Shown here one piece after another: positions 3,863 to 19,760 of a DNA stretch of 64,000 bases. A program made the position numbers and the translations under genes. The stretch's first letter is position 1. Each line of letters opens with the position of its first letter. The DNA is from Mechercharimyces sp. CAU 1602 (GTDB taxonomy: Bacteria > Bacillota > Bacilli > Thermoactinomycetales > JANTPT01): contig NZ_JANTPT010000003.1 in the NCBI RefSeq assembly GCF_024753565.1, forward strand, positions 124,001 to 188,000. Reading direction: 5' to 3'. The notes under the pieces were generated by a model that made no database searches, had not been told where the DNA came from, and was given only the letters and a program-made list of their open reading frames with translations.

Positions 3863-4012
3863 TTATATATTAGTGGCAATGATTGCTGAAAGGGTTCCAA
3901 AATTAGTGATTTATTTATCGTAGTGAATGATTTCATCAATATATGAAAATACTCATAGATTAAAACTATATACATTTTTATAAGAGTAGCTATAATGAAA
4001 GGAGATCAACAT

Positions 4013-5311
4013 ATGGACAAGCAGGAGAGGGATCGTATAGGAAAGATTTTGCGATCCATACGTAATGAAAAAGGGGATAAGATTGATGCTTATGTAGATG
4101 AAGGGTTGTCGCGAGCAACCATTCATCGCATCGAAACAGGCGATGGTAATGTGGGTGGAAGCGCAGAAGGTTATATTGATAAAGTGAGGATATTGGCGCA
4201 AAAGATGGGAAAGACGATGGAGGATATCATGGAAAGAAAAGATACCTCTCAGTTGCTCTTTCGTATGTATGTGGTAGAACAGCTAATTGAGGGACGGCGT
4301 GTGGAGGAAGCATTTACGGCTCTACATGAGATGAAGGTGTCTCCCCAGACTGGATTAAAAGCATACTATCACTATCTCTTTGCCAAGGGGTACTATTACC
4401 TCCGTCAGTTTGATCATGCGCTACGCATCGGACAACAGGTGATCAGTGAATGTAGATCGGGATATTGTCCTGCATTTTATAATATGGAATCCTTAGTCCG
4501 CAGTATGATGGCTAAAATCCATATCGAGCATGGAAAATATCGTGAGGCTTTAGATGAGATTGAAGAGGCATTAGACTGCTTTTTACAAGATGGGGAACGG
4601 GCAAGTATTTTAGCGAGTTTAAAAGCAGATAAAGCGTATGTGTTAACACGTTTAGGAGAGTATGAGCGAGCCGACCGCATTATTGATACCCTTTTTCAAA
4701 AGATGCAGGAGATTGTGATCCCTGATGTGAAATTTGCTGTCTATGAATTAGCAGCGCGCTCTGCTTTACGCAAACAATTTTATCAACGTGCTAGTGAGAT
4801 TGGTCAAGTTGGTGTCAATCTGATTCTATACCATAAACAGAAGCGTCCTTACCTTACATTGGGGCGGGTGTTGTTAGAAACGTATATGGACACGCCTGTG
4901 GAAGATTTACAGATGGCGAAGATCTTGTGTGAAACGCTCTTAGTTTTTGTGGAGGATTTAGAGGATGGTAGTGACAAAAATCAGTTAAAAGCAGAGTTTC
5001 AATCGGTGCTAGCTCGAGTCTGGTATAAGCAGGATCAGATCGAGGAAGCAAGAGTATTATATGAAAGCTCAGTCGCTCTCCATACAGAGCAAGTAGAGGC
5101 TTGGATTGGATTAGGGGATTGTTACAGACGCCTTCTTCATCCTGATGATGCAATTGAGGCTTATCAACAGGGATTGTCACTCTCACAATCGAGATATCCT
5201 GATCGGTTAAAAGAGATTTATGTGGGATTAGCTCACTGTTATAGTGCTCAAGGCGATTCTATGCAAGAGCTCATGTGGTTACGAAAAGCAGGGGGATTAA
5301 CAGATGGTTAA
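4013..5311 (+). CDS. XRE-type HTH regulator with TPR domain
   Basis: A 432-residue protein. Residues about 6-70 resemble a lambda-repressor-like HTH (GLSRATIHRIETGDG). The rest is helical tetratricopeptide-like repeats (for example EEARVLYESSVALHTEQVEAW). This architecture is that of RRNPP-like or Rap/PlcR-like regulators, whose TPR part often senses peptides or partner proteins. The start is the ATG at 4013, six codons inside the longest ORF, because the site aaaggagat (3998-4006) is correctly spaced only for it. No pheromone-sized ORF with a ribosome site is visible directly downstream. Its target is unknown; the biosynthetic cluster 2 kb away is one candidate. Confidence 0.7.
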   Translation: MDKQERDRIGKILRSIRNEKGDKIDAYVDEGLSRATIHRIETGDGNVGGSAEGYIDKVRILAQKMGKTMEDIMERKDTSQLLFRMYVVEQLIEGRRVEEAFTALHEMKVSPQTGLKAYYHYLFAKGYYYLRQFDHALRIGQQVISECRSGYCPAFYNMESLVRSMMAKIHIEHGKYREALDEIEEALDCFLQDGERASILASLKADKAYVLTRLGEYERADRIIDTLFQKMQEIVIPDVKFAVYELAARSALRKQFYQRASEIGQVGVNLILYHKQKRPYLTLGRVLLETYMDTPVEDLQMAKILCETLLVFVEDLEDGSDKNQLKAEFQSVLARVWYKQDQIEEARVLYESSVALHTEQVEAWIGLGDCYRRLLHPDDAIEAYQQGLSLSQSRYPDRLKEIYVGLAHCYSAQGDSMQELMWLRKAGGLTDG

Positions 5312-5335
5312 ATGGTTTTAGTAGAGATAAATTAA

Positions 5336-5371
5336 AAACAGGAGCTACCAGTAAAGAAGCAGCTCCTGTTT
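5336..5371. terminator. Bidirectional terminator between convergent genes
   Basis: An 11-bp stem (AAACAGGAGCT / AGCTCCTGTTT) lies between the plus-strand TPR regulator and the minus-strand hydrolase. Read on the minus strand it is followed by TTTTTAAT, so it fits best as the hydrolase terminator. Confidence 0.7.
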
Positions 5372-5399
5372 GGAAGACATGAAGATAGTGAAATAAAAA

Positions 5400-6383
5400 T
5401 TAAGAGTGCGGGGTTGCTGTTTGCTGAGAAGATGCCGTGTTCATCATCAGATTTAACTCTTGCACTACCAGCTCCAATCCTTTGCGAGCCTGTTTGGAGC
5501 TACTGCTCATATGAACAAAGCTATGTACCATTTGGTCAAAGTTTAGGTAGCGTACAGGCACACCTGCCTGTTTCAACTTCTCTGCATAAGCAGCTCCTTC
5601 ATCGCGCAGAGGGTCTAATTGCGCAGTGATAATGAGTGCTTGTGGTAAAGAGGAAGCATCCTCTACGAGCAAAGGGGATGCGCTCACTTCTAATCCCTGC
5701 TCTTCTCTTTCTAGATAGTGCTGCCAAAACCACTGCATCTTCTCCTTTGTTAAGTTATATGCGTATCCTGCATTGTAGGAGTCGGTCTCAAAGTTGCAGT
5801 GAAGGACGGGACAGATTAAAAGTTGTCCGTGTAAGAGATATTTTCCTTCAGCGCGTAGTTTAATACTGGCTGCAGTTGCTAGGTTGCCGCCAGAACTTTC
5901 TCCTGATATGATGACTCTTTGCGGATCACCACCATAGGAAGCGATGTGATCAAATACCCATGTGGTAGCGGTGAGTGCATCTTGTAGTGGAATCGGATAT
6001 TTCGATTCCGGTGCGAGGCGATAATCAACAGAGACAACAATGGCCTGGCATGTTTTGGCGACGTAACGACAAAAGGCGTCGTCTTTGTCCAAGTCACCAA
6101 ATAACCATCCTCCCCCATGGAAATAGATTAATACGGGTAGGGAAGATGAAGAAGATGTGGATTCAGGTGTATAGATGCGGATCGGTAAAGAGTATCCATC
6201 ACTGTCGATCAAGCGATCCTCCACTCGTCCGATCTGTATTTTCTCGGCATGGAAGTAAGGTAGTCCTTTTTTATAATAATATCTGCACTGCTCAGGGGTT
6301 AACTCTGCCATAGTAGGGTGATTAAGCTTTTTCATTTCGATTCCTACAGTGTGTAAAAGTTGTCCAATCTCTTTATCAACCAT
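5400..6383 (-). CDS. Alpha/beta hydrolase, hormone-sensitive-lipase family
   Basis: A 327-residue soluble esterase-type protein. It has the HSL-family oxyanion motif HGGGW (about 89-93), a nucleophile elbow GESSGG (Ser163), an acidic residue in LDPLRDEG (Asp257) and the triad His in MVHSFVH (His287). The chosen start is the internal ATG at 6383, preceded by aagagg; the longer ORF begins at 6401. No signal peptide is visible. A Fur-box-like site lies 19 bp upstream of this start, which suggests iron-responsive expression. The substrate cannot be read from the sequence; ester hydrolysis of a siderophore or an acylated product is speculation. Confidence 0.8.
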   Translation of the reverse strand: MVDKEIGQLLHTVGIEMKKLNHPTMAELTPEQCRYYYKKGLPYFHAEKIQIGRVEDRLIDSDGYSLPIRIYTPESTSSSSSLPVLIYFHGGGWLFGDLDKDDAFCRYVAKTCQAIVVSVDYRLAPESKYPIPLQDALTATTWVFDHIASYGGDPQRVIISGESSGGNLATAASIKLRAEGKYLLHGQLLICPVLHCNFETDSYNAGYAYNLTKEKMQWFWQHYLEREEQGLEVSASPLLVEDASSLPQALIITAQLDPLRDEGAAYAEKLKQAGVPVRYLNFDQMVHSFVHMSSSSKQARKGLELVVQELNLMMNTASSQQTATPHS

Positions 6384-6401
6384 TATTATTCCTCTTTTCA
6401 T

Positions 6402-6416
6402 TGAGAATCATTATCA
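6402..6416. promoter_or_regulatory. Fur-box-like operator upstream of the hydrolase
   Basis: TGAGAATCATTATCA matches the 7-1-7 Fur consensus TGATAATNATTATCA with one mismatch. It is just upstream of the minus-strand hydrolase start. Assignment rests on sequence match alone; other Fur-family regulators (PerR, Zur) use related boxes. Confidence 0.6.
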
Positions 6417-6537
6417 ATAATAATAGCTCAATGAATGGCAAAAAGCTACCCTTAAGGTAGAAAGTTTTATCGTGTACTCATTGATAGAGTTTGTATGTCT
6501 TCTCGTAGTTATCCACTGCTTTAAAGCTTTGTTTAGC

Positions 6538-6879
6538 TTACGATGTAGGTGTAGAAGGCTTAAACATCGGGTAGAGTACATACCCTACATTGCGTTGGGA
6601 GATGATTGTTGGGTGTGGATACACTGTGATTAATTTCTTGCGCAAACGGCTGATATATACATATAACGTACTGTCACCGACGTGAGGAGAACCCCAAGCG
6701 AAGGTGATGAGCTCTTCGGCTGGAACAATCTTACCGAGATTAAGAGCGAGTAAGTAGAGGATTCGAAATTCCGTTCGGGAGAAAGTTAGTTGTGACTTAC
6801 CTTGGGTAAGAACTTCCTGATGAGTGTCGAGTACATAGCCACTACCTAATTGAATGGGATCTTTAGAATGAATCATCAT
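6538..6879 (-). CDS. Stand-alone OmpR/PhoB-type winged-helix regulator
   Basis: A 113-residue protein made almost only of a Trans_reg_C winged helix: LTFSRTEFRILYLLALNLGKIV, then the recognition-helix region DSTLYVYISRLRKKL and the wing QRNVGYVL. There is no receiver domain, so it cannot be a classical two-component response regulator. It is divergent from the biosynthetic cluster across a roughly 520-bp gap and is the obvious candidate for a cluster-specific regulator. ATG codons at 6877-6879 and 6874-6876 are both possible; the upstream minus-strand sequence contains aaaaggag. Confidence 0.7.
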   Translation of the reverse strand: MMIHSKDPIQLGSGYVLDTHQEVLTQGKSQLTFSRTEFRILYLLALNLGKIVPAEELITFAWGSPHVGDSTLYVYISRLRKKLITVYPHPTIISQRNVGYVLYPMFKPSTPTS

Positions 6880-7140
6880 GGGATAGTCAACTCCTTTTCG
6901 ATGGGTGATATGTTGTTATGAAGTGACGGTGTTTTCAGAAATAAATATTGTGTAAGGAACCACACCCCTGTCTGAATAAGGATAATAAAACTTTAATAGT
7001 AAAAAAAGTAAAATGACACTTATATCAGGAGACAGACGTACTCCCTATGTAATATATTATAGCTAGGGCGTGTAAAATCCTTTTTATTTTTTAAAAAGAG
7101 AAAAATAGGTAGGAAGGGAAGAAGGAAGGGTCTATTGGGA

Positions 7141-7308
7141 ATGAAGGAATTATTGTCAGATATATATTTAATATTGGAAATAGAGCCCAGTTTGGAGCTG
7201 CGCTTGTTTTTTGTATTTACTGTTCATGTTTTATTATTATTATTGAAGTATTACAATCTGCCTCAGATAAATAGAACCATAATTTTGATATACATAAATA
7301 AAGTGTAA
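7141..7308 (+). CDS. Candidate small hydrophobic protein (55 aa)
   Basis: An ORF of 55 codons starting with ATG at 7141. A purine-rich ribosome site (gaaggaaggg, 7121-7130) lies about 10 bp upstream. The N-terminus is acidic (MKELLSDIYLILEIEPSLE). A single predicted membrane segment follows, roughly LRLFFVFTVHVLLLLLKYY, and then a short tail ending INKV. It ends about 100 bp before the repeat-peptide start on the same strand. No family is recognised. It could be a small membrane partner or immunity peptide, or a chance ORF in AT-rich DNA. Confidence 0.35.
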   Translation: MKELLSDIYLILEIEPSLELRLFFVFTVHVLLLLLKYYNLPQINRTIILIYINKV

Positions 7309-7357
7309 GTACGGCGATAGAGGAAGGAGTAGACGGAGGGGCGTATTAATTAAAAAG

Positions 7358-7383
7358 ACGGTATATTCAAAATATTATACCGT
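7358..7383. promoter_or_regulatory. Inverted repeat, candidate operator or 5'-UTR hairpin
   Basis: ACGGTATA (7358-7365) and its exact complement TATACCGT (7376-7383) flank a 10-bp AT-rich spacer. The element ends 7 bp before the ribosome site of the repeat-peptide gene. It could bind the divergent winged-helix regulator, which often recognises repeats, or act in the mRNA. No second copy was noticed nearby. Confidence 0.45.
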
Positions 7384-7406
7384 ATACAACGGAAGGAGGG
7401 ATGATG

Positions 7407-7658
7407 ATGGAAGTCAAAGCAACTCCTATCAGTGCTGAGGAATTACAAAGTTATATGGTGTCAGAAAGTAGTAAGACGGATGTACGGCACGCTGAAGAAC
7501 GTGCGATCGACTTACGCGCTATTGATCTACGTGCCATTGATCTACGTGCGATAGATTTACGTGCGATCGACTTACGTGCGATCGACTTACGTGCGATCGA
7601 CTTACGTGCGATCGACTTACGTGCCATCGACCTGAGGGCGATTGATATCCGGGCATAA
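7407..7658 (+). CDS. Putative precursor peptide with ten RAIDL/RAIDI repeats
   Basis: An 83-residue product from the third ATG of an ATG-ATG-ATG run. That ATG (7407) is 7 bp from ggaggg, whereas the first at 7401 would abut the ribosome site. The first 31 or so residues (MEVKATPISAEELQ...HAEE) are leader-like and acidic. The rest is nine copies of RAIDL, one RAIDI and a final RA. Several repeats use different synonymous codons yet encode the same residues, which suggests selection on the peptide. It is the first gene of the co-directional cluster. Two readings are possible: a ribosomal-peptide precursor with a multi-copy core, or a short pentapeptide-repeat beta-helix (IDLRA register). The context of an M16 pair and a MATE exporter favours the first. 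No Cys, Ser, Thr or Lys occurs in the repeats, so lanthionine or azoline chemistry is excluded there. Confidence 0.6.
   Translation: MEVKATPISAEELQSYMVSESSKTDVRHAEERAIDLRAIDLRAIDLRAIDLRAIDLRAIDLRAIDLRAIDLRAIDLRAIDIRA
7500..7655 (+). repeat. 15-bp tandem coding repeat (10 full units plus 6 bp)
   Basis: Units read CGT GCG ATC GAC TTA with synonymous variants (CGC GCT ATT GAT CTA, CGT GCC ATT GAT CTA, and others). Units 5-8 are identical to each other and to unit 1, suggesting recent expansion. Units 2-4 and 9 differ only silently; unit 10 has Ile for Leu. Slippage or recombination could easily change copy number. Confidence 0.95.
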
Positions 7659-7678
7659 CAAGGGTGCGGAGGGGCTGT

Positions 7679-7694
7679 GGGGAGCATGCTCCTC
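7679..7694 (+). other. Small hairpin between precursor gene and next gene
   Basis: A perfect 12-bp palindrome (GGAGCATGCTCC, 7681-7692) sits in the 75-bp gap after the repeat-peptide gene. It lacks a clean T tract. It might stabilise the precursor mRNA end or allow partial termination, an arrangement common after ribosomal-peptide precursor genes. Confidence 0.3.
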
Positions 7695-7733
7695 CTATTC
7701 CTTTAACAATTCTAATGTGAGAGGGGGAGGGAA

Positions 7734-8669
7734 GTGGTTCACCTTGAACAGGTAGAGGCGTATGTACCAGAAGCGCGCGTCCCGATTGAACAATTAGGAG
7801 AGAGATTGGAGTTAAATCGCTATCAAATAAAACTCTTCCAGCGAATTCACGGATTACATGAGATATGTATGGATGAGGAGCAGTCACTCGTTTCGTTGTT
7901 AATTAAGCCATTGGCAAGAATTTTGATGTACGCTCCGAATGTGGTTGAGCACGTTCGCTATCTTGTTTATTGCCATACGATTAAGACAGTAACACCCTAC
8001 CCGATTAATGTATTGGAAGAGGTGAAGGAGGAGTTTGGTTTACAACATGCGCTCTCTTTTTCGCTCACACAGCAAAACTGTTCTTCTGGACTGGTAGCCA
8101 TGGAATTGGCAGATGATTTACTCCGTGGCGATGGCGATCCAGAGGCACGAGTACTTATTTTGTTGGGTGAAAAAGCTTCCCATCCGACGTTACAGCTGAT
8201 TCCCAATACGACCATAATGGGCGAAGCGGCTGCAGCATTAGTGGTGCGAGCCGGGGTGGGAAAAGATGAAGTGGTGGCGATACACCGTACGATTAGTGGG
8301 CAGTACGCTGCAGGTATCAATATCTCAGCAGAGAGCCTACGCCAGTTTGAACAGTCCTATGTTCCTACATTAGTAAAAACTATTCAGCTTACGCTAGATA
8401 AAGCAAATCTGTCTTTACAAGAGATAGAGTGGATATTACCTCATAATGTAAATCTATCTTCATGGACACAAGTGGCACGAGCGCTCTCATTTCCAGTAGA
8501 GAAAATTTACTTGGATAACGTATCGAAGTTAGGCCACTGCTTTTGCGCTGATTCGTTTATCAATTATCAAGATGTGGTGAAGCAAGGAATGATGCGGCGG
8601 GGTTCATATTATTTGTTGGTGACGGTAGGGTTGGGAGCCGTGTTTACGGTGGCGGTCATGCGTCATTAG
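7734..8669 (+). CDS. KASIII-like condensing enzyme, intact active site
   Basis: A 311-residue thiolase-fold protein of the FabH/KASIII type. The nucleophile is Cys116 in QQNCSSGL, the catalytic His is His237 in ILPHNVN (FabH has PHQAN), and the third position is His268 in KLGHCFCADS, where FabH has Asn. It therefore has a Cys-His-His set instead of the usual Cys-His-Asn. Starts at GTG 7734 with gggggaggga just upstream. Possible roles are chain initiation or extension on the cluster ACP, or acyl transfer as in CerJ/DpsC-type relatives. It precedes the ATP-grasp gene by 12 bp in the same operon. Confidence 0.75.
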   Translation: MVHLEQVEAYVPEARVPIEQLGERLELNRYQIKLFQRIHGLHEICMDEEQSLVSLLIKPLARILMYAPNVVEHVRYLVYCHTIKTVTPYPINVLEEVKEEFGLQHALSFSLTQQNCSSGLVAMELADDLLRGDGDPEARVLILLGEKASHPTLQLIPNTTIMGEAAAALVVRAGVGKDEVVAIHRTISGQYAAGINISAESLRQFEQSYVPTLVKTIQLTLDKANLSLQEIEWILPHNVNLSSWTQVARALSFPVEKIYLDNVSKLGHCFCADSFINYQDVVKQGMMRRGSYYLLVTVGLGAVFTVAVMRH

Positions 8670-8681
8670 GGGGGATAAGTC

Positions 8682-10052
8682 ATGCACGTACAAACATCAA
8701 CGTTCTGGTCGAAATGGAAAGAAGGAGTCGTTGGAGACGAGCAGGCAACTCTGATTTTGCTCGGTAACTTTGAGGTAGAGGAGTATTGGGCACAAGATCG
8801 TCTGAAATTACCAAGTGTGAGTGGGAAAGGGGGGCGTCGGATTGTTCATCGGATGGAGGAACTGGGCGTTTTTCTCGCCTCTACGGAAGACGTTGTGGTA
8901 ATGAAGGCAGGGATGGATGTTACTTATCAGCAATATATGCAAGAAATTAAACATCCACTACCTAACATGATCTCCTTATCCCGCAATATCCCTCACTTGT
9001 CGATTACAGAAAACTTATTGCAATGCGAGCAGACCATCGCCCAGTTAAAGATGTTGCGACAGGAGCATTCTGCGCTCTATCTTCTTCCTTTTGGTGTTTC
9101 CGGTCATGAGGAGGAGCTAGCACAGTTAACAGGAATTCCACTTGCAGTTCCCTCTCAAGCTATTTTCGAGCGAGTAAATAGTAAAATTTATTCGCGTAAG
9201 ATTAATGAGGAGTTAGGGATCAGACAAGTTCCGGGGGTTTGTTGTGAAGGAATAGCCGAATTACAGTCTGGATTTGCTCGTATGAGAGCATCTTTGACGG
9301 CAGGAAAAAAGATAGTGCTCAAAGATGCCCACGGTGTTTCCGGTAAAGGGATCACCGTAATTGAGTCGGAGAAACGTTTTCAACAGCTGCTTAAGATGTT
9401 GACTCGAAGTTGTACAGGGAAGAAGGAACAGGTGGCATTTGTCTTAGAGGAATGGGTGGAGAAGAGATGCGATCTTAACGTACAAGCTGTAATTACTCGT
9501 ACAGGAGAGGTGCTACTGCATGCCATAAAAGAAGCGGTAACTCGGGGAGGTGTGCATCAAGGACATTACTTTCCGGCTCGGTTGACGCCAACACAGCGAA
9601 CGCAGCTATATGAGGTAGTACAGAAGCTAGGACATGCCTTGTACGCAGATGGCTACTTTGGGATGATGGGGGTTGATGCGATGGTGGGTGTAGATGATTC
9701 CTTGTGGCCCAATGTAGAAATCAATGCTCGTCTAAATTTATCTACTTATCAGTCTCTTTTGGAAGAGCGCTATGTGGCAGCGGGACAGGTTATGTGGGCA
9801 AAGCATTACCCTGTTCAGTTGGTAAGGCCCCTCCCTTTTCGTGATTTACGAGATCGTCTAGACGATCTGCTTTTGACGAAACGAGGCGAATGCGGTCTTT
9901 TTATTCATAATCATGCAACGATGAATGCTGCTTATCAAGAAGATGGGAAACCATTTCCCGGTCGCTTGTATGCTCTTCTGATCGCTGATGAAGATGAACA
10001 ATTGTATGCATTAAACGATGAGGTGGAACAACGGTTGCAATCACTGATCTAG
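8682..10052 (+). CDS. ATP-grasp ligase, BtrJ / PGM1-like
   Basis: A 456-residue protein with a pre-ATP-grasp part and an ATP-grasp fold. A nucleotide-binding Lys and glycine loop are visible (KIVLKDAHGVSGKG, Lys214). The metal-binding segment is VDAMVGVDDSLWPNVEIN (Asp332, Glu346, Asn348). The following decarboxylase and ACP genes reproduce the butirosin BtrJ-BtrK-BtrI set. There BtrJ loads L-glutamate through its gamma-carboxyl onto the ACP pantetheine. By analogy this enzyme likely loads an amino acid onto the ACP; which amino acid is not visible. A peptide-ligase role, as in PGM1, is an alternative. SD at gggggat before the ATG. Confidence 0.7.
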   Translation: MHVQTSTFWSKWKEGVVGDEQATLILLGNFEVEEYWAQDRLKLPSVSGKGGRRIVHRMEELGVFLASTEDVVVMKAGMDVTYQQYMQEIKHPLPNMISLSRNIPHLSITENLLQCEQTIAQLKMLRQEHSALYLLPFGVSGHEEELAQLTGIPLAVPSQAIFERVNSKIYSRKINEELGIRQVPGVCCEGIAELQSGFARMRASLTAGKKIVLKDAHGVSGKGITVIESEKRFQQLLKMLTRSCTGKKEQVAFVLEEWVEKRCDLNVQAVITRTGEVLLHAIKEAVTRGGVHQGHYFPARLTPTQRTQLYEVVQKLGHALYADGYFGMMGVDAMVGVDDSLWPNVEINARLNLSTYQSLLEERYVAAGQVMWAKHYPVQLVRPLPFRDLRDRLDDLLLTKRGECGLFIHNHATMNAAYQEDGKPFPGRLYALLIADEDEQLYALNDEVEQRLQSLI

Positions 10053-10067
10053 AAGGAGGAAAAGACG

Positions 10068-11360
10068 ATGGATGGGCAATATCGAGTGCAGGGAAAGTCG
10101 CTTTCTGCGTTAGCAGACGAGTATGACACTCCTTTGTATGTATATGATGGCCATGTGATGGTAAATACATTTCGCTCGTTACAAGAATGTTTGAGTAATG
10201 AGTTTGAGTTTTTCTACTCACTTAAAGCTAACCCTAATCTATCAGTATATGCACTCCTACAGCAGTTGGGTGCACGAGCTGAAGTGTCGTCATTAACAGA
10301 GTTAGAGATAGCGATCCGTGCGGGTACACCTGCAGAAAATATCATTTTTTTAGGACCAGGTAAAAGTATGACTGAGCTGATAGCCTGTATCGACTATGGC
10401 ATTTATGCCATTGTGTGTGAGTCATTTGGTGAACTGGAGCAGATTGAGAGGCTGGCACAACAGAGGGGGCGCATCGTTGATGTGGCTTTGCGTATCAACC
10501 CGGCCTTTACAGTTAAAGGCTCCCGGTTGACGATGGGGGGGAAACCGCGTCAATTTGGCATCGACGAAGAACAAGTACTGGAGCAACTGCCATTGGTGCG
10601 TTCGTATCGACATATCCGAATGCTAGGGGTACACGTCTATATGGGTACTCGGATTTTAGAAGCAGATGTCATTGCTCAAAACACTGAGAAGATCTTTGCT
10701 CTGACCCGCCGAGTTGAGCAGAGATTAGGATATACACTGGATATGGTCGATATTGGAGGAGGATTAGGTGTTCCTTATTTTGACCAGGAGCAGGAGCTGG
10801 ATGTAGTAAGCTTAGCTAATAAGCTTAATCCACTGGTTGAATCGTTTCGGGGAGACCATCCGCATACGCGTATCATTATGGAATTGGGGCGTTATTTGGT
10901 AGGGATGAGCGGGATATTGGTGACTCGTGTTCGCTACAAAAAGGATTCCTTTGGGGAGACGTTTCTAATTGTGGATGGTGGAACGCATTGTCATATGGCG
11001 GCGGTGGGTATAGGGTCTTTCGTGAAACGCAATTTTCCAATCCGACATGTAGAGAAGTATCAATGTGACCCCACGCATTCGTATCACATCACAGGACCAC
11101 TTTGTACACCAAACGATCAGATCGGCAAGGCAGTAATGTTACCAGAAGTAGAGGTGGGGGATTTACTGGGTCTTTTTCATTCGGGTGCATATGGACCGAC
11201 CGCTTCTCCAGTCTTATTTTTAAGTCATGGATTTCCAGCAGAAGTGATGGTGTATAAAGGAGAAGCGTTTTTGATTCGAGAACGGGATACGACAGCTGAC
11301 ATGTTGCGCAAACAACGTTTACTAGACGGTATGAAAGTAGAAGCGAATACACGCCGATGA
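10068..11360 (+). CDS. PLP-dependent decarboxylase, BtrK / DAP-decarboxylase-like
   Basis: A 430-residue fold-type III (alanine racemase fold) PLP enzyme. The Schiff-base Lys is in FYSLKANPN (Lys53), a glycine-rich phosphate loop is DIGGGLG (229-234), followed by ELGRYL, and the partner-subunit cysteine is in GPLCTPND (Cys346). BtrK in butirosin synthesis decarboxylates a gamma-glutamyl-thioester on the ACP to give 4-aminobutyryl-ACP. The gene lies between the BtrJ-like ligase (15 bp) and the ACP (21 bp), so an ACP-tethered substrate is likely. It could instead act on a free diamino acid such as DAP, ornithine or arginine. Confidence 0.75.
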   Translation: MDGQYRVQGKSLSALADEYDTPLYVYDGHVMVNTFRSLQECLSNEFEFFYSLKANPNLSVYALLQQLGARAEVSSLTELEIAIRAGTPAENIIFLGPGKSMTELIACIDYGIYAIVCESFGELEQIERLAQQRGRIVDVALRINPAFTVKGSRLTMGGKPRQFGIDEEQVLEQLPLVRSYRHIRMLGVHVYMGTRILEADVIAQNTEKIFALTRRVEQRLGYTLDMVDIGGGLGVPYFDQEQELDVVSLANKLNPLVESFRGDHPHTRIIMELGRYLVGMSGILVTRVRYKKDSFGETFLIVDGGTHCHMAAVGIGSFVKRNFPIRHVEKYQCDPTHSYHITGPLCTPNDQIGKAVMLPEVEVGDLLGLFHSGAYGPTASPVLFLSHGFPAEVMVYKGEAFLIRERDTTADMLRKQRLLDGMKVEANTRR

Positions 11361-11381
11361 GGCAGAGAAAGGGTGGTTAAT

Positions 11382-11657
11382 ATGAAAAGAGAGCAAGTGG
11401 TTGTGGCGATTAAGCGCTCCTTAAAAGAAGTGCTAAATATGAAAGAAGTGGATCATATCACAGAGAAGACCTCTCTTTTTGATGATTTGGCGCTGGATTC
11501 CACGTCGGTGTTGGAATTATTGATGGTGTTAGAAGATGAAGTGGAAGGCTTGTATGTGGATCCAGAGACGTTAGAACCGCACCATTTTGAAACAGTGGGG
11601 TCGTTGGCGACGTATATTGAATCGCATCTTAAAGATGTGACAGAGCATGTTGGCTAA
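11382..11657 (+). CDS. Acyl carrier protein
   Basis: About 91 residues, the size of a free ACP. The phosphopantetheine site is LALDSTSVLEL (Ser40), with helix II and III patterns after it. The ATG at 11382 is preferred over a GTG at 11373 because aaagggtgg precedes it at a suitable distance. It probably holds the amino-acyl unit made by the two upstream enzymes, then serves the KAS-like and dehydrogenase-like proteins. Its 3' end overlaps the next gene by 11 bp. Confidence 0.85.
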   Translation: MKREQVVVAIKRSLKEVLNMKEVDHITEKTSLFDDLALDSTSVLELLMVLEDEVEGLYVDPETLEPHHFETVGSLATYIESHLKDVTEHVG

Positions 11658-12501
11658 TCTCTATGTGGAGCATCTGGATTATCATTGTTTTACTCAGCAG
11701 CGTCCCTATCTATTTGATGAGCTCGTGCATCGCTTTCAGCAGGAGTTGTTGCAGCCGCATGGTCTGCATGTAGATACGGCCTTGCTGGAACGGAGCTCAC
11801 ACCACTCTTTTTTAGAGATGAGTAAGTCTTTATTAGATCCATTGGCTGTACAAGGAAAGTTAGAGGGTGTAGATTTGGTGGTATTGGCATACTGCACTCC
11901 AGATGTGAATGTAACGGATTCTGTTGTTTGCCACTTGATTCATCAATATCAGTTGGAAGGGGCTAATGGCTTTGCTATCTCTGATATGGGGATGGCGGCT
12001 AGTTGGACGGCATTACAAGTGATTGCGGATCGCTTTTACACTGGTTCTAGTCAAAAGGCAATTTTGATCGCCTTAGACCAAACCACATTTCCTAATCGCA
12101 TAGCTCATGTTCATGATCGGCAACTACGGGATGCAGGTTCGATTCTGCTTATGAGCCGAACAGCTAGTGAGGAAGAGAGTTGGAGCTTAGTAGACAGGAT
12201 GTATCGATACTCTCCTCAGGGAATAGAGGGAAGGGTGAACGATACAGTTGCTAGTTGGAGTTTGGAATATTCACTCAAAGAAGAGCGGGCGGTTATCGTT
12301 GCCCATCGCTCGTTGGAACCGTGTCTGTATTGGGTAGATCAGCCTGTTGTTTATTATGATGCGGATACGCACCTGGTAACGGCTCCCTTTATCACATGGC
12401 ACCAGCAATTAAAGGGAGCGCCCGAGTACGTGTGGTGGATGCATTACGATGATGTTCATCCTTTCTATTACAGTGCTCTCTTTCGTTCCCATCAGGTATA
12501 A
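11647..12501 (+). CDS. Degenerate KASIII-like protein (no active-site Cys)
   Basis: A 284-residue protein with thiolase-fold features such as VDLVVLAYCTPD and DRQLRDAGSILLMSR. At the nucleophile position it reads ISDMGMAASW, so no cysteine is present, and the C-terminal PHN and GH motifs are missing. It is shorter than its relatives at 7734 and 12520. A plausible role is a non-catalytic partner of the intact KASIII-like enzyme encoded next, like a chain-length factor. Translationally coupled to the ACP gene by overlap. Function inferred from context only. Confidence 0.55.
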   Translation: MLANLYVEHLDYHCFTQQRPYLFDELVHRFQQELLQPHGLHVDTALLERSSHHSFLEMSKSLLDPLAVQGKLEGVDLVVLAYCTPDVNVTDSVVCHLIHQYQLEGANGFAISDMGMAASWTALQVIADRFYTGSSQKAILIALDQTTFPNRIAHVHDRQLRDAGSILLMSRTASEEESWSLVDRMYRYSPQGIEGRVNDTVASWSLEYSLKEERAVIVAHRSLEPCLYWVDQPVVYYDADTHLVTAPFITWHQQLKGAPEYVWWMHYDDVHPFYYSALFRSHQV

Positions 12502-12519
12502 AGGAGGGGAGGGCGATAG

Positions 12520-13479
12520 ATGAACGGTACATTTGGTATTAAGGGAATAGGAACCTATATCCCTGCTACTTTTCAGACAGTAGAAGAGGTCTTGGCAGGA
12601 GTAGGAGCAGGAGTGGGCGAACGGCGTTTGTTGGAACGGATTCACCAACTGCGCCAAATTCCTATGGTGAAGTCAGGGCAGCGTTTGGAAGAAACTATCA
12701 CCTATGCGCTCGAAGATCTAAAGACAAAAGTGGAAAGCTGTTCGATCGATGTGGCTCTCTATGCTCATTCTCAGTTTACACATGTACCCTTCCGCTACGA
12801 TCTTCTGTATAAAGTACTTGAGGTGCAGGGATGGGAACATGTCCCCTGTTATGGTGTGGATCAGCTAAATTGTGCTTCTTTTTTTGCTGCATTGCAATTG
12901 GCGCATTCCATCTTTGCTCGGGATGAATTGGTAGAGAATGTGCTTTTAATATCCGCTGATCAGAGTAATTTTTTGTCTTATGGACGCTATATTTCTCGAG
13001 CTACGATTATGGGTGATTCGGCTACTGCTCTGCTGCTTACACGTACAGGTTTTCGCCATCGCTATCTTTTTACATCTGTGCATTCAGATCCACGTTTTCA
13101 TCGTGGCTTCTATGATTCTGAGGAGAATCGGAAAGCATTTAACCACGACTATCTTTCCAATATTATGGAGGGAATGGAGCATACATTGCGGGAAGTTGGG
13201 ATGGGGCTGGAAGAGGTGGATTTCATTTTGCCGCACAACGTAAATCACACCACATGGCGACGCTTTAGCGAGCGTAGCGGCATGAAAGCAGATAAAGTGA
13301 TGACCGCATGGATTTCGCAGTTGGGTCACACTTATACTACGGATGCCCAGCTCATTTTAGCACAACTGTTAGCAAAGTCTGTGTTTCAAGCGGGAAATCG
13401 GTACATGATGGTGGGAGTTGGATTGGGTTGCTTTGTGGGTACCGCTATCTTTGAAGTGATAGAGGAAGGAGTAGGCTGA
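12520..13479 (+). CDS. KASIII-like condensing enzyme, second intact copy
   Basis: A 319-residue paralogue of the protein at 7734. Active-site residues: Cys118 in DQLNCASFF, His239 in ILPHNVNHTTW, and His270 in SQLGHTYTTDAQ, again Cys-His-His rather than FabH-type Cys-His-Asn. The glycine-rich C-terminus (MMVGVGLGCFVGTAIFEV) is typical of the fold. Strong site aaggagggga before ATG 12520. Its stop overlaps the next start (TGATG). With the degenerate protein just upstream it may form a heterodimer. Confidence 0.75.
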   Translation: MNGTFGIKGIGTYIPATFQTVEEVLAGVGAGVGERRLLERIHQLRQIPMVKSGQRLEETITYALEDLKTKVESCSIDVALYAHSQFTHVPFRYDLLYKVLEVQGWEHVPCYGVDQLNCASFFAALQLAHSIFARDELVENVLLISADQSNFLSYGRYISRATIMGDSATALLLTRTGFRHRYLFTSVHSDPRFHRGFYDSEENRKAFNHDYLSNIMEGMEHTLREVGMGLEEVDFILPHNVNHTTWRRFSERSGMKADKVMTAWISQLGHTYTTDAQLILAQLLAKSVFQAGNRYMMVGVGLGCFVGTAIFEVIEEGVG

Positions 13480-14129
13480 TGGAAACAACATTAAGGCGCA
13501 CAAATCAATCAGAAATCATGCGGATGTGGCGATATTTGCAAAAAGAACCTTGGGGTGGGATTTTGCGTGTGTGGGAAGAAGAAAGGATGGAGACAGTGTA
13601 TGCTCCCCACGGTTTTACGTTGCTGAGTCGAGGGAGGGGGGAGAAAAAACGGGTGTTTTCTTACTTAGACAGGGTGCCTGATCAGTGGTTGGAAAGAGAT
13701 CATGTCGAAGTGTATAGGGTACAAAGAGGTGTGTCGGAGTATACGCCGGAGGGGCAAGAGGAAGGTGCATGGCAACAGAGGTGGGAAGAGCGTGTTTTTC
13801 ATCTGCGCTTTGCGCTGGCGCTGATGGTATTGGAGCAGTGTAAACAACACTTAGAAAAGCGGCGCGCTCAGGGGATACCTACGTTGCAACATCAGATGGT
13901 GAAAAGTTTGATTTCTGATTTTTTGATCTTGTTGGAATGTGTGTACAGTAGAGATTCTACTTCTTCCGATTTGGAACAAAGGCGTTTGCGTCACTTTGAT
14001 CATACAAGATTGGATCAACAAGTATGCTCGTTATTAAAACTGATGGGTGGACATGGATATATAAGTTCCGGCTGTAGTCGCTGGGGCCATGCGCTCAGCG
14101 TGATTCATAACGTATGGGTAGTGAGGTGA
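13479..14129 (+). CDS. Acyl-CoA-dehydrogenase-like stub (C-terminal domain)
   Basis: A 216-residue protein. Its last third resembles the C-terminal helical domain of acyl-CoA dehydrogenases (LLKLMGGHGYISSGCSRWG, cf. the GG-GY motif). The N-terminal and beta-barrel FAD-binding domains are absent and the first 100 residues are not recognised. A full dehydrogenase follows 5 bp downstream, so this may be a structural or regulatory partner, as in heteromeric ACADs. The family link is weak and rests on that motif plus context. Confidence 0.45.
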   Translation: METTLRRTNQSEIMRMWRYLQKEPWGGILRVWEEERMETVYAPHGFTLLSRGRGEKKRVFSYLDRVPDQWLERDHVEVYRVQRGVSEYTPEGQEEGAWQQRWEERVFHLRFALALMVLEQCKQHLEKRRAQGIPTLQHQMVKSLISDFLILLECVYSRDSTSSDLEQRRLRHFDHTRLDQQVCSLLKLMGGHGYISSGCSRWGHALSVIHNVWVVR

Positions 14130-14134
14130 AAGGG

Positions 14135-15298
14135 ATGGTATCGACAGCTGCTTGGAAGGAATACGAGGAGCAATTAACCGTTATCTCTCAACGCTTCCGT
14201 CAAATCGGGATGGAGTTGGAAAGGGAGCCGGAGATGATCGCTACAGTGGTGGAAGAAGAGCCGCTTCGGATCTATCGCAAACAGATGCTTCCTCCTGACT
14301 ACAACGATGAACCAGTAAAAACGGCAGATGGAACCTTGTTTTATGGACTTACCTGTCAGGAGCGGGTGCGCTCTTTTGAAAAATTGGCATATGGTGATTT
14401 TGGCGTTACTCTCGCTTGTCCAGGCCCGTCTTTGTCAGGGATGGTGATTCAGGACTTAGCAGATGAAGAGCAACAGGATCGTTACTATACACGCTTAGTG
14501 GAGAAGCCGACTTGGACTTTTTTCGCTTTGACTGAGCCAGGTTATGGTTCTGATCCGATGGGGATGGAAACTCGGTTGACGAAGGAACAAGTAGGAGACG
14601 GATATCGCCTACATGGGGAGAAAATGTTTATTGGTAATGGTGCGAGAGCAGATGTGGGCGTTGTGTTCGCCCGCAAAACATCAGGTCCTCTCGGGATCGA
14701 GGTGGTACTGGTAGAAACAAATCACCTAGAGGGATTTAAAGCAGATTCATTGGAGACATGGGGGGTGCGCGCAGCAGGTCTTAGCCGTTTAACTTTTACT
14801 CATTGTCACATCGCTGAGGAGCAAGTGGTCGGTCGTCATTTACGCCCGATGAAGCGAGGAATGATGGGGGCTGTTACCACCTTTAACAAGATGCGTCCTA
14901 GCATTGCAGCTGCAGCATTAGGGATTGCGCAAGCTGCGTATGACTATGTATATGAACAGCGCCGTCAGTGGTTGGAAGCGGAGAAAACTACACTACAAAA
15001 CTTGGAGTTAGAGCTTATATCTGTACGGCAACTAATTCGGCGAGCGGCAGAGGAAGTGGATGCGAACCCTCGTAATGGCCATTATGCCTCGGTGGCGAAA
15101 GTACAGGCATCTTCATTGGCAGAAAGGATGACAGATTCAGCGCTTATGTTGATGGGAGCTGGTTCGATCTACGAGCACCCTTGTTTATACAAATGGTATC
15201 GTGATGCACGTGCATGTGAGTTTATGGAGGGGACGTCGCATATACAAAAACAGACTGTGTTTCAGGCCTTTATGAGTGGGAAGATGCAACATGTATAG
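14135..15298 (+). CDS. Acyl-CoA/acyl-ACP dehydrogenase family enzyme
   Basis: A full-length flavoprotein of about 387 residues. It has the FAD-contact motif FALTEPGYGSDP, the central-domain segment GEKMFIGNGARAD, and the base-containing segment EFMEGTSHIQK near the C-terminus, where Glu is the ACAD catalytic base. The start at ATG 14135 fits the upstream gtgaggtg better than the ATG at 14114. In this operon the likely substrate is an acyl chain on the cluster ACP, giving alpha,beta-unsaturation; no dedicated ketoreductase or dehydratase is encoded nearby. The 3' end overlaps the next gene. Confidence 0.8.
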   Translation: MVSTAAWKEYEEQLTVISQRFRQIGMELEREPEMIATVVEEEPLRIYRKQMLPPDYNDEPVKTADGTLFYGLTCQERVRSFEKLAYGDFGVTLACPGPSLSGMVIQDLADEEQQDRYYTRLVEKPTWTFFALTEPGYGSDPMGMETRLTKEQVGDGYRLHGEKMFIGNGARADVGVVFARKTSGPLGIEVVLVETNHLEGFKADSLETWGVRAAGLSRLTFTHCHIAEEQVVGRHLRPMKRGMMGAVTTFNKMRPSIAAAALGIAQAAYDYVYEQRRQWLEAEKTTLQNLELELISVRQLIRRAAEEVDANPRNGHYASVAKVQASSLAERMTDSALMLMGAGSIYEHPCLYKWYRDARACEFMEGTSHIQKQTVFQAFMSGKMQHV

Positions 15299-16232
15299 GG
15301 AGCAGAAACAAAACCGCATAAGCATTGATGCATTAGCACTTACACGTGTGAAAGCAGACAGATATCAGCATGATACGGTTCCGCCTGATGATTTCTATGA
15401 AATGCAGTTGCACTACGATGCGGAGTGTTATTATCACCAGCGTTCATGGCATCAATTGCCGACGCAGTCGATCAGAGTGGAAGGAAGAAGGGTCTCACAT
15501 GAAGAAGTTTCACTGTGTACACTCTCCTCTTTAGAGGGGATACTGCCACCGGGGAGAATGACGTCTGCACAAGTGTTGTTAGTAGCGCATTCGTTTTATA
15601 CTCGCCTCTCTGCGAATCCCATGCTGGCACGGCTTTTAGAATACTGGAAAAAAAGACCGCGCATCGCACTCGGTTTGTCGCATTTAGGAGAGGTAGCCTC
15701 AACGGAAGGGGTACGTGTCGCGGATTGGACGCTAGCTGAAGGTGAAACAGGAGTTCTACTTCTCAGTGAGCAACAGTTTTTCCTCCCACACCGATTCGCG
15801 CCCCCTCCAGCGCTTCCGCTTGGAGATGCAACGGTCGCGCTCTCTCTATCAAAGGACGGGGAAACGATAATTTTAGAGCAGCATAAGCGTGGGGTGATGC
15901 AGAACAAACGAATTTTACCCGCATGGGAAGATTGGATACAGCAGGTGAAGCGGATCGTGGAGGCAGAGCGAGATGAGGTTGATTGGGTTGTTATTCAGCA
16001 GGCTTTTTCTACACAGGTAGTAGAAGATGAGAAGCTGTTTGTACGTCAGCATCAGATTGATCATAACTTACAATGCACGGATGTTTGGATCACGTTAGCA
16101 GAAGGGTTAACGCAGAATGTGATTAGGGTTGGTGATCGCGTGTTACTCCTTTCCTTTGATCGGCTTCATACCTATTCAATGATACAGCTGTTGGTGCAAG
16201 CGCGTCCACGGATGAGTGATGCGTGGATATAA
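15291..16232 (+). CDS. Highly degenerate KAS-like protein
   Basis: About 313 residues, similar in size and region order to the KASIII-like proteins of the cluster. The nucleophile region reads IALGLSHLGEVAST without Cys, and the His-Asn motif is replaced by VVIQQAFS. It retains a thiolase-fold style (VLLVAHSFYTR, ETGVLLLS). It is probably non-catalytic; a partner for one of the two intact KAS-like enzymes is likely. The ATG at 15291 (overlapping the dehydrogenase stop) is preferred; 15276 is the alternative. The family call is tentative. Confidence 0.4.
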   Translation: MYREQKQNRISIDALALTRVKADRYQHDTVPPDDFYEMQLHYDAECYYHQRSWHQLPTQSIRVEGRRVSHEEVSLCTLSSLEGILPPGRMTSAQVLLVAHSFYTRLSANPMLARLLEYWKKRPRIALGLSHLGEVASTEGVRVADWTLAEGETGVLLLSEQQFFLPHRFAPPPALPLGDATVALSLSKDGETIILEQHKRGVMQNKRILPAWEDWIQQVKRIVEAERDEVDWVVIQQAFSTQVVEDEKLFVRQHQIDHNLQCTDVWITLAEGLTQNVIRVGDRVLLLSFDRLHTYSMIQLLVQARPRMSDAWI

Positions 16233-16250
16233 CGAGAGAGAGAAGAGAGG

Positions 16251-17639
16251 ATGGAGTCGATGGGAAGACTGGATTATGTGCATGGCAATATAACAAAACT
16301 TTTATATCTTACATTTATTCCAATGTTGATTGCTTCCATCGTCAACGTAGTTATGGTAGTTTCACAAGCGGTTTTTATTGGACAAGTGGGGGGAGAGGCA
16401 GTAAATATACGCGGCTTCTATTTGCCGATCTCTTTCTTTATGACAGCATTGCTAGAAGCGATGCAGTTGTCGACACAAGTGGTGCTGGCAAAGCGAAAAG
16501 GGGCGGGTCAACAAAAACAGATCGCTCAAAGCTTTTACCGCTTCCTGTTTTTTGGCTTATTGCTTATGGGAATGTTTGGAGTGCTAATCATCGTAACACT
16601 GCCGTTACTAACAACCTTTTTCGGTGTTGATGCAGCATATGCAGGACTTTTTCAACGCTTCGTCAGTGGGATGGTTGTGGTGGAACTGATTGTAGTGATG
16701 AATATTGTGATCGCAGCTAGCCTACGTGCACTCGGAAAAGTGAACATCGCCTCGTTTATTGCAGTTATGGGTTCCGTACTCAATATTGCGCTGATGTATT
16801 ATTTTATTCTTGTACGTGGCATGGGATTGCAAGGGATTGTGCTGGCGTTTCTCATTACTAGTAGTCTTCAGTTTATCGCTAGCTATAGCTATATAGTATG
16901 GCTAAAAGAGATTCCGATCGGATTTCCGCGAGGGATACGAGGAAAAGATGAGATGGTGACAGCGATTTTACGTGGGGTTGGCGTGCCTGTTTTCCTATCG
17001 TATTGCTCTATCACCTTGGGGTTATTGTTATTTAACCTGATCATGGAGTCGTTTGGTGATGTAGCCGTAGGTGGTTATGGTGCGGCGTATAGCATCCAAA
17101 CCCTTGTGATTATACCAGGCATTTTATTGGGATCGGCAATGGGCATTGTGATGAATCAAAACTTAGGATCAGGGAAGTTGGAGCGAGTGTTTGCTGTTTA
17201 TAAAAAAGGGATCTTGCAGGCATTCTATTTCTACCTCCCGCTGTCCCTCTTCGTCTTCCTACTGCGGGAACCACTTGCTTCTGTCTTCTTTCGCGCTGCT
17301 GATCGGGAGGTTTTTTTACCATATGCTGTGGGCTATTTGGCGATTGTGGCTCCTACTTATCTCTTTATGGGTCCAATGTTGACGACGTTGATCACATTGG
17401 AACAGATGGGGAAAGGAATGAAAGCACTCGGGATGAATCTTACTTATTTTCTTCTCATCGCGCTCCTCGGTTGGGCGGTAACAACCTGGACGAATGATGT
17501 GAGCTCATTCTATTGGACGGTCGCCTTTTGTAACCTAATCGGCATATCCGGCTTGTATTATGGATATCGTCTCATGCATGCGGAGTTTAGTGTTTCTCGT
17601 CAGGAAGGTGAAGAGAAAGAAATGGTGTCAGGGGCATGA
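16251..17639 (+). CDS. MATE-family efflux transporter
   Basis: A 462-residue integral membrane protein with about twelve hydrophobic segments in two homologous halves. Typical MATE features include the N-terminal LTFIPMLIASIVNVVMVV segment and VAVGGYGAAYSIQ in the second half. It likely exports the cluster product by cation antiport. The start may be ATG 16251 or ATG 16260; the purine-rich stretch at 16235-16250 serves either. It sits within the operon. Confidence 0.9.
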   Translation: MESMGRLDYVHGNITKLLYLTFIPMLIASIVNVVMVVSQAVFIGQVGGEAVNIRGFYLPISFFMTALLEAMQLSTQVVLAKRKGAGQQKQIAQSFYRFLFFGLLLMGMFGVLIIVTLPLLTTFFGVDAAYAGLFQRFVSGMVVVELIVVMNIVIAASLRALGKVNIASFIAVMGSVLNIALMYYFILVRGMGLQGIVLAFLITSSLQFIASYSYIVWLKEIPIGFPRGIRGKDEMVTAILRGVGVPVFLSYCSITLGLLLFNLIMESFGDVAVGGYGAAYSIQTLVIIPGILLGSAMGIVMNQNLGSGKLERVFAVYKKGILQAFYFYLPLSLFVFLLREPLASVFFRAADREVFLPYAVGYLAIVAPTYLFMGPMLTTLITLEQMGKGMKALGMNLTYFLLIALLGWAVTTWTNDVSSFYWTVAFCNLIGISGLYYGYRLMHAEFSVSRQEGEEKEMVSGA

Positions 17640-17659
17640 GTGGCGGAGGAGGAACACGG

Positions 17660-19743: not shown

Positions 19744-19760
19744 GGGCAGGGGGAGGAAAG

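Follow-up and report, generated by a model that had tools for sequence, protein, structure and literature searches.

A stretch of 64,000 nucleotides from Mechercharimyces sp. CAU 1602 (hereafter the window) contains, on its plus strand, a run of 15 open reading frames (ORFs; 7401–22269) that starts with an 85-amino-acid (aa) precursor-like peptide and that we read, from its genes, as an operon for a ribosomally synthesized and post-translationally modified peptide (RiPP). In this run stand an ATP-grasp ligase, a fold-III pyridoxal phosphate (PLP) decarboxylase and a free acyl carrier protein (ACP). We slightly favour the view that this trio is the carrier-loading arm of the operon, and that ACP-borne omega-amino-acyl units would be put on ornithine (Orn) or lysine (Lys) side chains. 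The sequence-only reading had taken the trio, at 8682–11657, for a counterpart of BtrJ, BtrK and BtrI of butirosin synthesis, with no BtrO, BtrG or BtrH partners. The trio is real: its genes (8682–10052, 10068–11360 and 11373–11657) lie contiguously on the plus strand, 15 and 12 bases apart, and their products have Pfam matches. Likewise, a Pfam scan of the 18 ORFs of 3995–22269 returned no BtrO-, BtrG- or BtrH-like family. As a unit, however, the locus is only the middle of 7401–22269, and the precursor gene had been missed.

The run shows what marks a RiPP operon, a kept leader and a variable core encoded beside modifying enzymes, a peptidase and an exporter. Its first gap is of 75 bases and later spacings range from −23 to +18 bases, except at the gene for the first M16 protein (M16a), whose mechanically called ORF overlaps its neighbour by 82 bases; an alternative start at 19761, with a good ribosome-binding site (RBS), lies past the acyltransferase stop. 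The genes of the run and the regulator next to it are the following.

6538–6879, minus strand: divergently oriented winged-helix regulator lacking a receiver domain (Trans_reg_C, 5.6e-16)
7401–7658, plus strand: precursor peptide, 85 aa, leader MMMEVKATPI... (RBS, tandem array, leader motif shared elsewhere)
7734–8669, plus strand: KAS1, similar to ketoacyl-ACP synthase (KAS) III, with Cys116-His237-His268 (ACP_syn_III_C, 2.6e-15)
8682–10052, plus strand: ATP-grasp ligase, 456 aa, proposed amino acid–ACP ligase (Pfam ATP-grasp, 3e-11)
10068–11360, plus strand: fold-III PLP decarboxylase, BtrK-like, 430 aa (Orn_Arg_deC_N, 1.2e-45; Orn_DAP_Arg_deC, 6.2e-18)
11373–11657, plus strand: free ACP with DSTS site, 94 aa (PP-binding, 1.2e-6)
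11647–12501, plus strand: KASx, KAS-like without the catalytic Cys (profile match to KAS2, 93% probability)
12520–13479, plus strand: KAS2, KASIII-like, Cys-His-His (ACP_syn_III_C, 2.1e-12)
13479–14129, plus strand: truncated acyl-CoA-dehydrogenase-like partner, C-terminal helical domain (profile against solved acyl-CoA dehydrogenases)
14114–15298, plus strand: acyl-CoA dehydrogenase, Glu in MEGTS (Acyl-CoA_dh_1, 3.2e-21)
15276–16232, plus strand: KASy, possible second Cys-less KAS-like partner (weak ACP_syn_III_C match, E 0.081)
16251–17639, plus strand: MATE exporter (MatE, 1.5e-34)
17636–18769, plus strand: arginase-family ureohydrolase with GGDHS, DAHHD and DMDCLDP (Arginase, 4.4e-35)
18766–19743, plus strand: predicted LPLAT/HtrB-fold acyltransferase, HX4R replacing HX4D/E (predicted structure; PatA and LpxM matches)
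19761–20996, plus strand: M16 peptidase-like partner (YfmF-like), no HxxEH (YfmF_fam, 4.4e-22; start chosen by RBS)
20989–22269, plus strand: M16 peptidase (YfmH-like), HFLEH (YfmH_fam, 1.8e-56)

Locus L025 has a homologue of the regulator (47.5%) that is likewise divergent. A short GC hairpin at 7679–7694, between the precursor and KAS1 genes, is possibly an attenuator; such hairpins are not clearly above chance regionally (13 found, 10.9 expected).

The ORF at 7401–7658 is preceded by ggaagga, a strong Shine-Dalgarno-like sequence, and encodes MMMEVKATPISAEELQSYMVSESSKTDVRHAEER followed by nine AIDLR units, one AIDIR and a final Ala, the DNA of 7499–7631 being a 15-base tandem array. Its leader motif is common to the window and ten other loci. 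The Polycladospora precursor has KATPI and then AADAK, ATAAK and ASAAK repeats, and a Paenibacillus peptide at the same position reads M(V/I)(L/I)KATPITLEQLK... and continues with A(V/A)xAR repeats. Six further Paenibacillaceae stretches added more variants, one with the six-residue unit ADVATR. The precursor of genome G146 has 39 residues and ends in ASGCCASGRCASGRC, and those of G1363 and G1362 are short (MKIKAKPMQIKNLKNVARYGGACGKC and kin), in several copies that are partly masked as N. In these two genomes, 25–26 aa precursor genes (YGGACGKC, YGGSCKC) are tandemly copied at L125 17074–18406 (G1363) and L127 1–330 (G1362), adjoined by a holo-ACP-synthase-like gene. In G1040, a 13-residue ORF, MKKAKVVAAKVVA, lies ahead of KAS1.

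The operon recurs in other Bacillota. Among 42 genomes of the order, the ligase had one close relative beyond the window (48%), in Polycladospora coralii, whose operon shows the same gene order between the regulator and the M16 pair, with the arginase gene missing. A single genome-contig scan gave 39 ligase loci, nine from Paenibacillus, one from Polycladospora and 29 from actinomycetes (L022 lies outside the 29 actinomycete contigs). KAS1 and the decarboxylase accompany the ligase in all ten Bacillota and in 23 of the 29 Actinomycetota loci, with gene order almost always kept; L046 and L061 have the decarboxylase on the opposite strand. The grouping of the trio is far beyond chance. Every Bacillota locus holds KAS1, ligase, decarboxylase, ACP, KASx, KAS2, both dehydrogenases and KASy (hereafter the acyl cassette) together with the MATE protein and the acyltransferase, and nine of the ten hold the arginase. 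Collinear operons were found in 9/9 Paenibacillus contigs of that scan, in the six further Paenibacillaceae stretches and in G1363 and G1362. A search with the acyltransferase profile returned three genomes among 398 of the phylum and 22 among 394 of one family; seven stretches of these 22 were read (G146 and the six), and the nine Paenibacillus contigs may overlap them. In another family the ligase was present in 3 of 261 genomes: G1363 and G1362, which carry the whole operon minus the arginase, and G1040, which has neither arginase nor acyltransferase, has GNAT-like proteins (by reading) and has a MATE protein with an extra domain.

Actinomycete loci are reduced in comparison: ACP is found in 22 of 29 and dehydrogenase in 19, the ligase stands alone in six, and no arginase or 18766-type protein was found in the 29 stretches examined. 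The cassette adjoins a nonribosomal peptide synthetase (NRPS) gene on a Streptomyces decoyicus plasmid and, by reading, is followed by an NRPS-like start in S. rimosus. A periodic basic peptide was sought near the actinomycete cassettes, and only GC-rich noise was obtained. Streptoaminal/5aTHQ was considered as the product of the actinomycete cassette since S. nigrescens HEK616 carries a cassette match; it was dropped because its gene set, as given in the available part of a review, differs in having two KS/CLF pairs and an aminotransferase.

To place the trio relative to butirosin, the decarboxylase was compared with solved structures. The two BtrK entries scored best (310.9 bits), the next being a diaminopimelate decarboxylase (183.8), and a GPLCTPxD motif is common to the window protein and BtrK. 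In a 57-row tree, from which L054 (split decarboxylase frame) was left out, BtrK grouped with L115 and L116 (100/98 for the three, with long branches flagged), and the window protein fell in a separate 47-row clade (98/93). Around the latter stood Polycladospora within Bacillota, then actinomycetes, then plasmid copies of Rahnella, Agrobacterium and Tritonibacter; diaminopimelate decarboxylases and one exosortase-associated copy lay outside. By this placement the window decarboxylase is sister to BtrK and not its orthologue, contrary to what the sequence-only reading implied. A BtrK search in 398 genomes of the class led to five places (L115–L119), the best relative being 48% identical. This relative, in L115, stands with an ATP-grasp protein and an ACP among glycosyltransferase-like genes, which by gene content makes L115 the nearest thing to a BtrI/J/K trio among the loci read. 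BtrJ is an ATP-grasp ligase; the window ligase and the L115 ATP-grasp protein are homologous (E 2e-28), kinship being given here as pairwise scores, with few alignable relatives of the BtrJ kind. Viral contigs searched for the ligase gave no match. The likeness of the trio to butirosin thereby stands as an analogy. Trios of this pattern that use a different ligase are common; examples adjoin exosortase-associated genes in Sinorhizobium and ectoine genes in Streptomyces.

Further loci with related genes were observed. Streptomyces plasmid clusters (L136 9965–19233, L135 13995–18905) hold a decarboxylase of the same clade, a holo-ACP synthase, an AMP ligase, an ACP and ectoine genes. L117 (G966) and L119 (G872) hold ligase–decarboxylase pairs (35–38% and 44–47%), together with KAS pairs, ACPs and glycosyltransferase-like and aminopeptidase-like genes. 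At L027 12497–18055 (G039), queuosine-type genes adjoin a KAS pair, a radical-SAM-like protein and an ATP-grasp protein that is distantly related to the ligase.

The core composition of the precursors correlates with the arginase. Of 19 precursors tallied, the 17 from arginase loci have arginine (Arg) in the core and no Lys, save one in the window linker, and the two without arginase (Polycladospora, G1363) have Lys and no Arg. The core start was set 18 residues after the start of the leader motif; an earlier start brings in one Arg in G1363 and further linker residues in others. By eye and outside this tally, Lys also occurs in both G1362 copies and in the 13-aa ORF of G1040. A tblastn search found no arginase in the stretches read of Polycladospora, G1363, G1362 and G1040. 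A pathway that requires a primary amine on the side chain, with the arginase making one from Arg, would be expected to give such a pattern. Of the arginase motifs taken from the accessible part of PMC12703449, DAHHD is present and the other two are absent (alignment of 6).

The protein of 18766–19743 had no Pfam match. An AlphaFold2 model was obtained from seven sequences (pLDDT, the model confidence score, 72.7), and all 14 Foldseek matches below 0.001 were PatA or LpxM. Superposition gave Z 15.7 for PatA (root-mean-square deviation, rmsd, 3.8; 232 aligned) and Z 15.2 for LpxM (rmsd 5.0; 256 aligned), followed by PlsC with Z 11.2, and on this model the protein is an LPLAT/HtrB-fold enzyme. 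The canonical catalytic motif of this fold is HX4D/E; HX4R is found in all seven aligned acyltransferases, in the G1363 and G1362 proteins, where the acyltransferase is fused to M16a (741 aa), and in G146. A mini-cluster in G146 (L070 2018–6072) comprises a precursor, an M50-like peptidase, an arginase, an HtrB-fold protein and an MFS exporter, with no ACP cassette. Because of the M16a fusion and the pairing with the arginase in G146, the acyltransferase is tied to the peptide, and since precursor, arginase and acyltransferase are all retained in G146 although the cassette is missing there, these three probably act together.

The KAS proteins and dehydrogenases bear on what is built on the ACP. 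In the KAS1 alignment, from which L064 (broken frame) was left out, Cys116 and His268 are present in 45 of 45 sequences and His237 in 42; its relatives of solved structure comprise FabH proteins as well as the acyltransferases CerJ and ChlB3. KAS2 has invariant C118, H239 and H270 (6/6), and both KAS1 and KAS2 look active. KASx has no Cys at the position aligned to the KAS catalytic Cys and, judged by its alignment, is a KAS relative without it; KASy is only a probable KAS-like partner. A seven-row profile of the truncated dehydrogenase matches the C-terminal part of solved acyl-CoA dehydrogenases (best E 1.4e-5), and its model has a pLDDT of 54.4. A single protein of the Tritonibacter plasmid combines decarboxylase and dehydrogenase, as expected for successive steps. 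Plasmids of Agrobacterium vitis, Rahnella and Tritonibacter (L130, L131, L132) carry related KAS1, KAS2, KASx, decarboxylase, dehydrogenase and ACP genes, along with AMP-binding ligases and a P450. A precedent is given by bolagladin: in the parts of PMC7756342 available to us, the proposed route puts Asp on a free ACP and continues with decarboxylation by the BtrK-like BolN, N-acylation of the amino-acyl-ACP by a KASIII homologue and desaturation by the dehydrogenase BolQ; deletions of bolN and bolQ fit the scheme, and deletion shows that the dehydrogenase is needed for desaturation. Because the bolagladin gene set matches the window and actinomycete loci, N-acylation and desaturation are, by analogy, preferred over chain extension, though unproven.

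On the reading that we favour, an acidic amino acid (most likely Glu or Asp) would be attached by the ligase, through its side-chain carboxylate, to the ACP, and the decarboxylase would convert it to an omega-amino-acyl-ACP, as suggested by BtrJ/BtrK and BolN. KAS1, KASx and the dehydrogenase pair may then elaborate the ACP-bound unit, most simply by N-acylation of the amine and alpha,beta-desaturation as in bolagladin, and KAS2 and KASy may carry out a second acyl step. The arginase-family enzyme would hydrolyse Arg of the precursor repeats to Orn, a step that lineages with Lys cores do without; the correlation is observed and the reaction is presumed from it. The HtrB/PatA-fold enzyme would transfer the acyl group from the ACP to Orn or Lys side-chain amines, the M16 pair would remove the leader, and the MATE protein would export the product. 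Formation of an omega-amino-acyl-ACP by the trio, as previously suggested, is likely by analogy and stays the best guess given the BtrK-like decarboxylase, the homologous ligase and the DSTS ACP; what does not hold is a stand-alone starter supply. A role as starter for KAS enzymes is unproven and is probably not the end point, the cassette lying in a peptide-modifying operon and the KASIII role proposed for bolagladin being N-acylation.

Several observations weigh against this scheme. Identity between the ligase and the single ATP-grasp protein seen in a trio of the BtrK clade is only 24%, and BolO is described, in the sections of the bolagladin paper at hand, as an adenylating enzyme, unlike the ATP-grasp window ligase; in the same sections, KASIII N-acylation is itself only a proposal. 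With Arg where the canonical acidic residue would stand, the acyltransferase may have a different chemistry. KASy matches KAS2 weakly (5.8% probability by hhalign), and the truncated dehydrogenase shows a weak or no match to the window acyl-CoA dehydrogenase in direct comparison. The Arg/arginase link amounts to about six lineages, of which three have the arginase and three lack it, or 1 in 20 if these are independent, and the G1040 peptide is without a leader and may be a chance ORF.

Other explanations were weighed against the same data. The omega-amino-acyl-ACP could prime C–C extension by the KAS pairs, yielding a small amine-bearing, perhaps cyclised polyketide with the peptide not an acceptor. 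Retention of Cys-His-His in KAS1 and KAS2, the resemblance of KASx to a chain-length partner and the core cassette of actinomycetes without a detectable repeat peptide would suit such a product, whereas domain scans found no ketoreductase or dehydratase in the operon, the cassette in Bacillota is accompanied by the peptide, the acyltransferase and the peptidases, and bolagladin, as far as its description was available, offers another role for such KASIII proteins; on balance we find extension unlikely. More doubtful still is that the arginase acts not on the peptide but on a small guanidino group carried by the acyl unit, as a deprotecting enzyme, or makes an ornithine pool. Its family is indeed that of agmatinases and arginases, and protection chemistry with amidinohydrolases occurs in desertomycin-type pathways according to the part of PMC11284099 seen. 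Yet loci with Lys cores lack the enzyme despite having the same acyl cassette, in G146 it stands next to an Arg-core precursor with no cassette present, and no amidinotransferase was found in the operon by domain scans.

Two more readings would detach individual genes from the pathway. That the decarboxylase is the genome's own lysine-biosynthetic LysA is very improbable. Its score of 304.1 bits exceeds the lysA cut-off of 297.9, and the window genome (G000) has no other full-length lysA match though DapA and DapF are present; but true LysA proteins of 481–518 bits were found in 7/7 other genomes, four of which carry the cassette, and the nearest solved relative is BtrK, with diaminopimelate decarboxylases outside the clade in the tree. 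The missing separate LysA of G000 may reflect an assembly gap, auxotrophy or double use. As for the ORF at 7401–7658, its xDLRA units, which we take to resemble a pentapeptide repeat, raised the idea of a Qnr/MfpA-like bystander or immunity factor. It matches NCBIfam penta_Alr5209 with E 8.4e-7, at 29.1 bits far below the cut-off of 125, and Pfam Decapeptide at 21.2 against a cut-off of 45. Homologues with the same leader in the same place have AVEAR, AAAAR, ATAAK, ADVATR or ACGKC cores, which are unfit for a pentapeptide repeat; this idea, scarcely credible, was rejected.

More tentatively than the carrier-loading role, and short of an even chance, we propose a new RiPP class with a KATPI-type leader and tandem short repeats, in which an agmatinase-family arginase converts Arg to Orn throughout, an HtrB-fold enzyme acylates and the cassette is shared with NRPS. 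If so, the agmatinase-family enzyme would be a second origin of peptide arginases, the HtrB-fold enzyme, new to RiPPs, would hang an N-acyl-dehydro-omega-amino acid on each Orn or Lys, the product would be a multiply acylated repeat peptide, and the acyl cassette would be an interchangeable starter module shared with actinomycete NRPS clusters. Such a pathway would unite three features so far met only separately: the building of amino acids on an ACP, peptide arginases and the acylation of side chains in ribosomal peptides. Arg with arginase versus Lys without it makes a clean natural experiment, the acyltransferase is a candidate new type for peptide engineering, and the KASIII and dehydrogenase genes that neighbour BtrK-like enzymes, in many cases labelled fatty acid or lysine genes, would become one recognisable module. 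The searched literature, which covered few subscription papers, held no description of this cluster type, an unread one present in many Paenibacillus genomes.

Compared with known systems, the trio has the same components as the butirosin BtrI-BtrJ-BtrK arm, an ATP-grasp ligase, a fold-III PLP decarboxylase and a free ACP, but the decarboxylase belongs to another clade, no aminoglycoside genes were seen and the acceptor appears to be a peptide. With bolagladin (BolO/BolC/BolN/BolM/BolP/BolQ), likened by the description available, the cassette shares the proposed charging of a free ACP with an acidic amino acid, a BtrK-like decarboxylase, two KASIII homologues and an acyl-CoA dehydrogenase, and ACP, decarboxylase, KASIII homologues and dehydrogenase occur together in the window. 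The bolagladin module supplies an NRPS, and some actinomycete cassettes seem to do likewise; the passages describing it contain no RiPP, Cys-less KAS partner or truncated dehydrogenase. Acyl groups on Orn/Lys side chains of ribosomal peptides are known, from the portion of PMC13060382 seen, in selidamides (kamptornamide, phaeornamide) and nostolysamides, which use GNAT acyltransferases and lanthipeptide synthetases, whereas the window has a predicted LPLAT-fold enzyme and a dedicated ACP cassette; no GNAT acting on Orn/Lys was found in the operon, and GNAT-like proteins were seen only in G1040. The acyltransferase has the predicted fold of LpxM and PatA, with HX4R in place of HX4D/E and presumably an amine as acceptor. 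Finally, the peptide arginases OspR, FlmR and OhkR (PMC12703449, consulted in part) share with the window enzyme, a Pfam Arginase-family protein, the proposed conversion of Arg to Orn on a precursor peptide.

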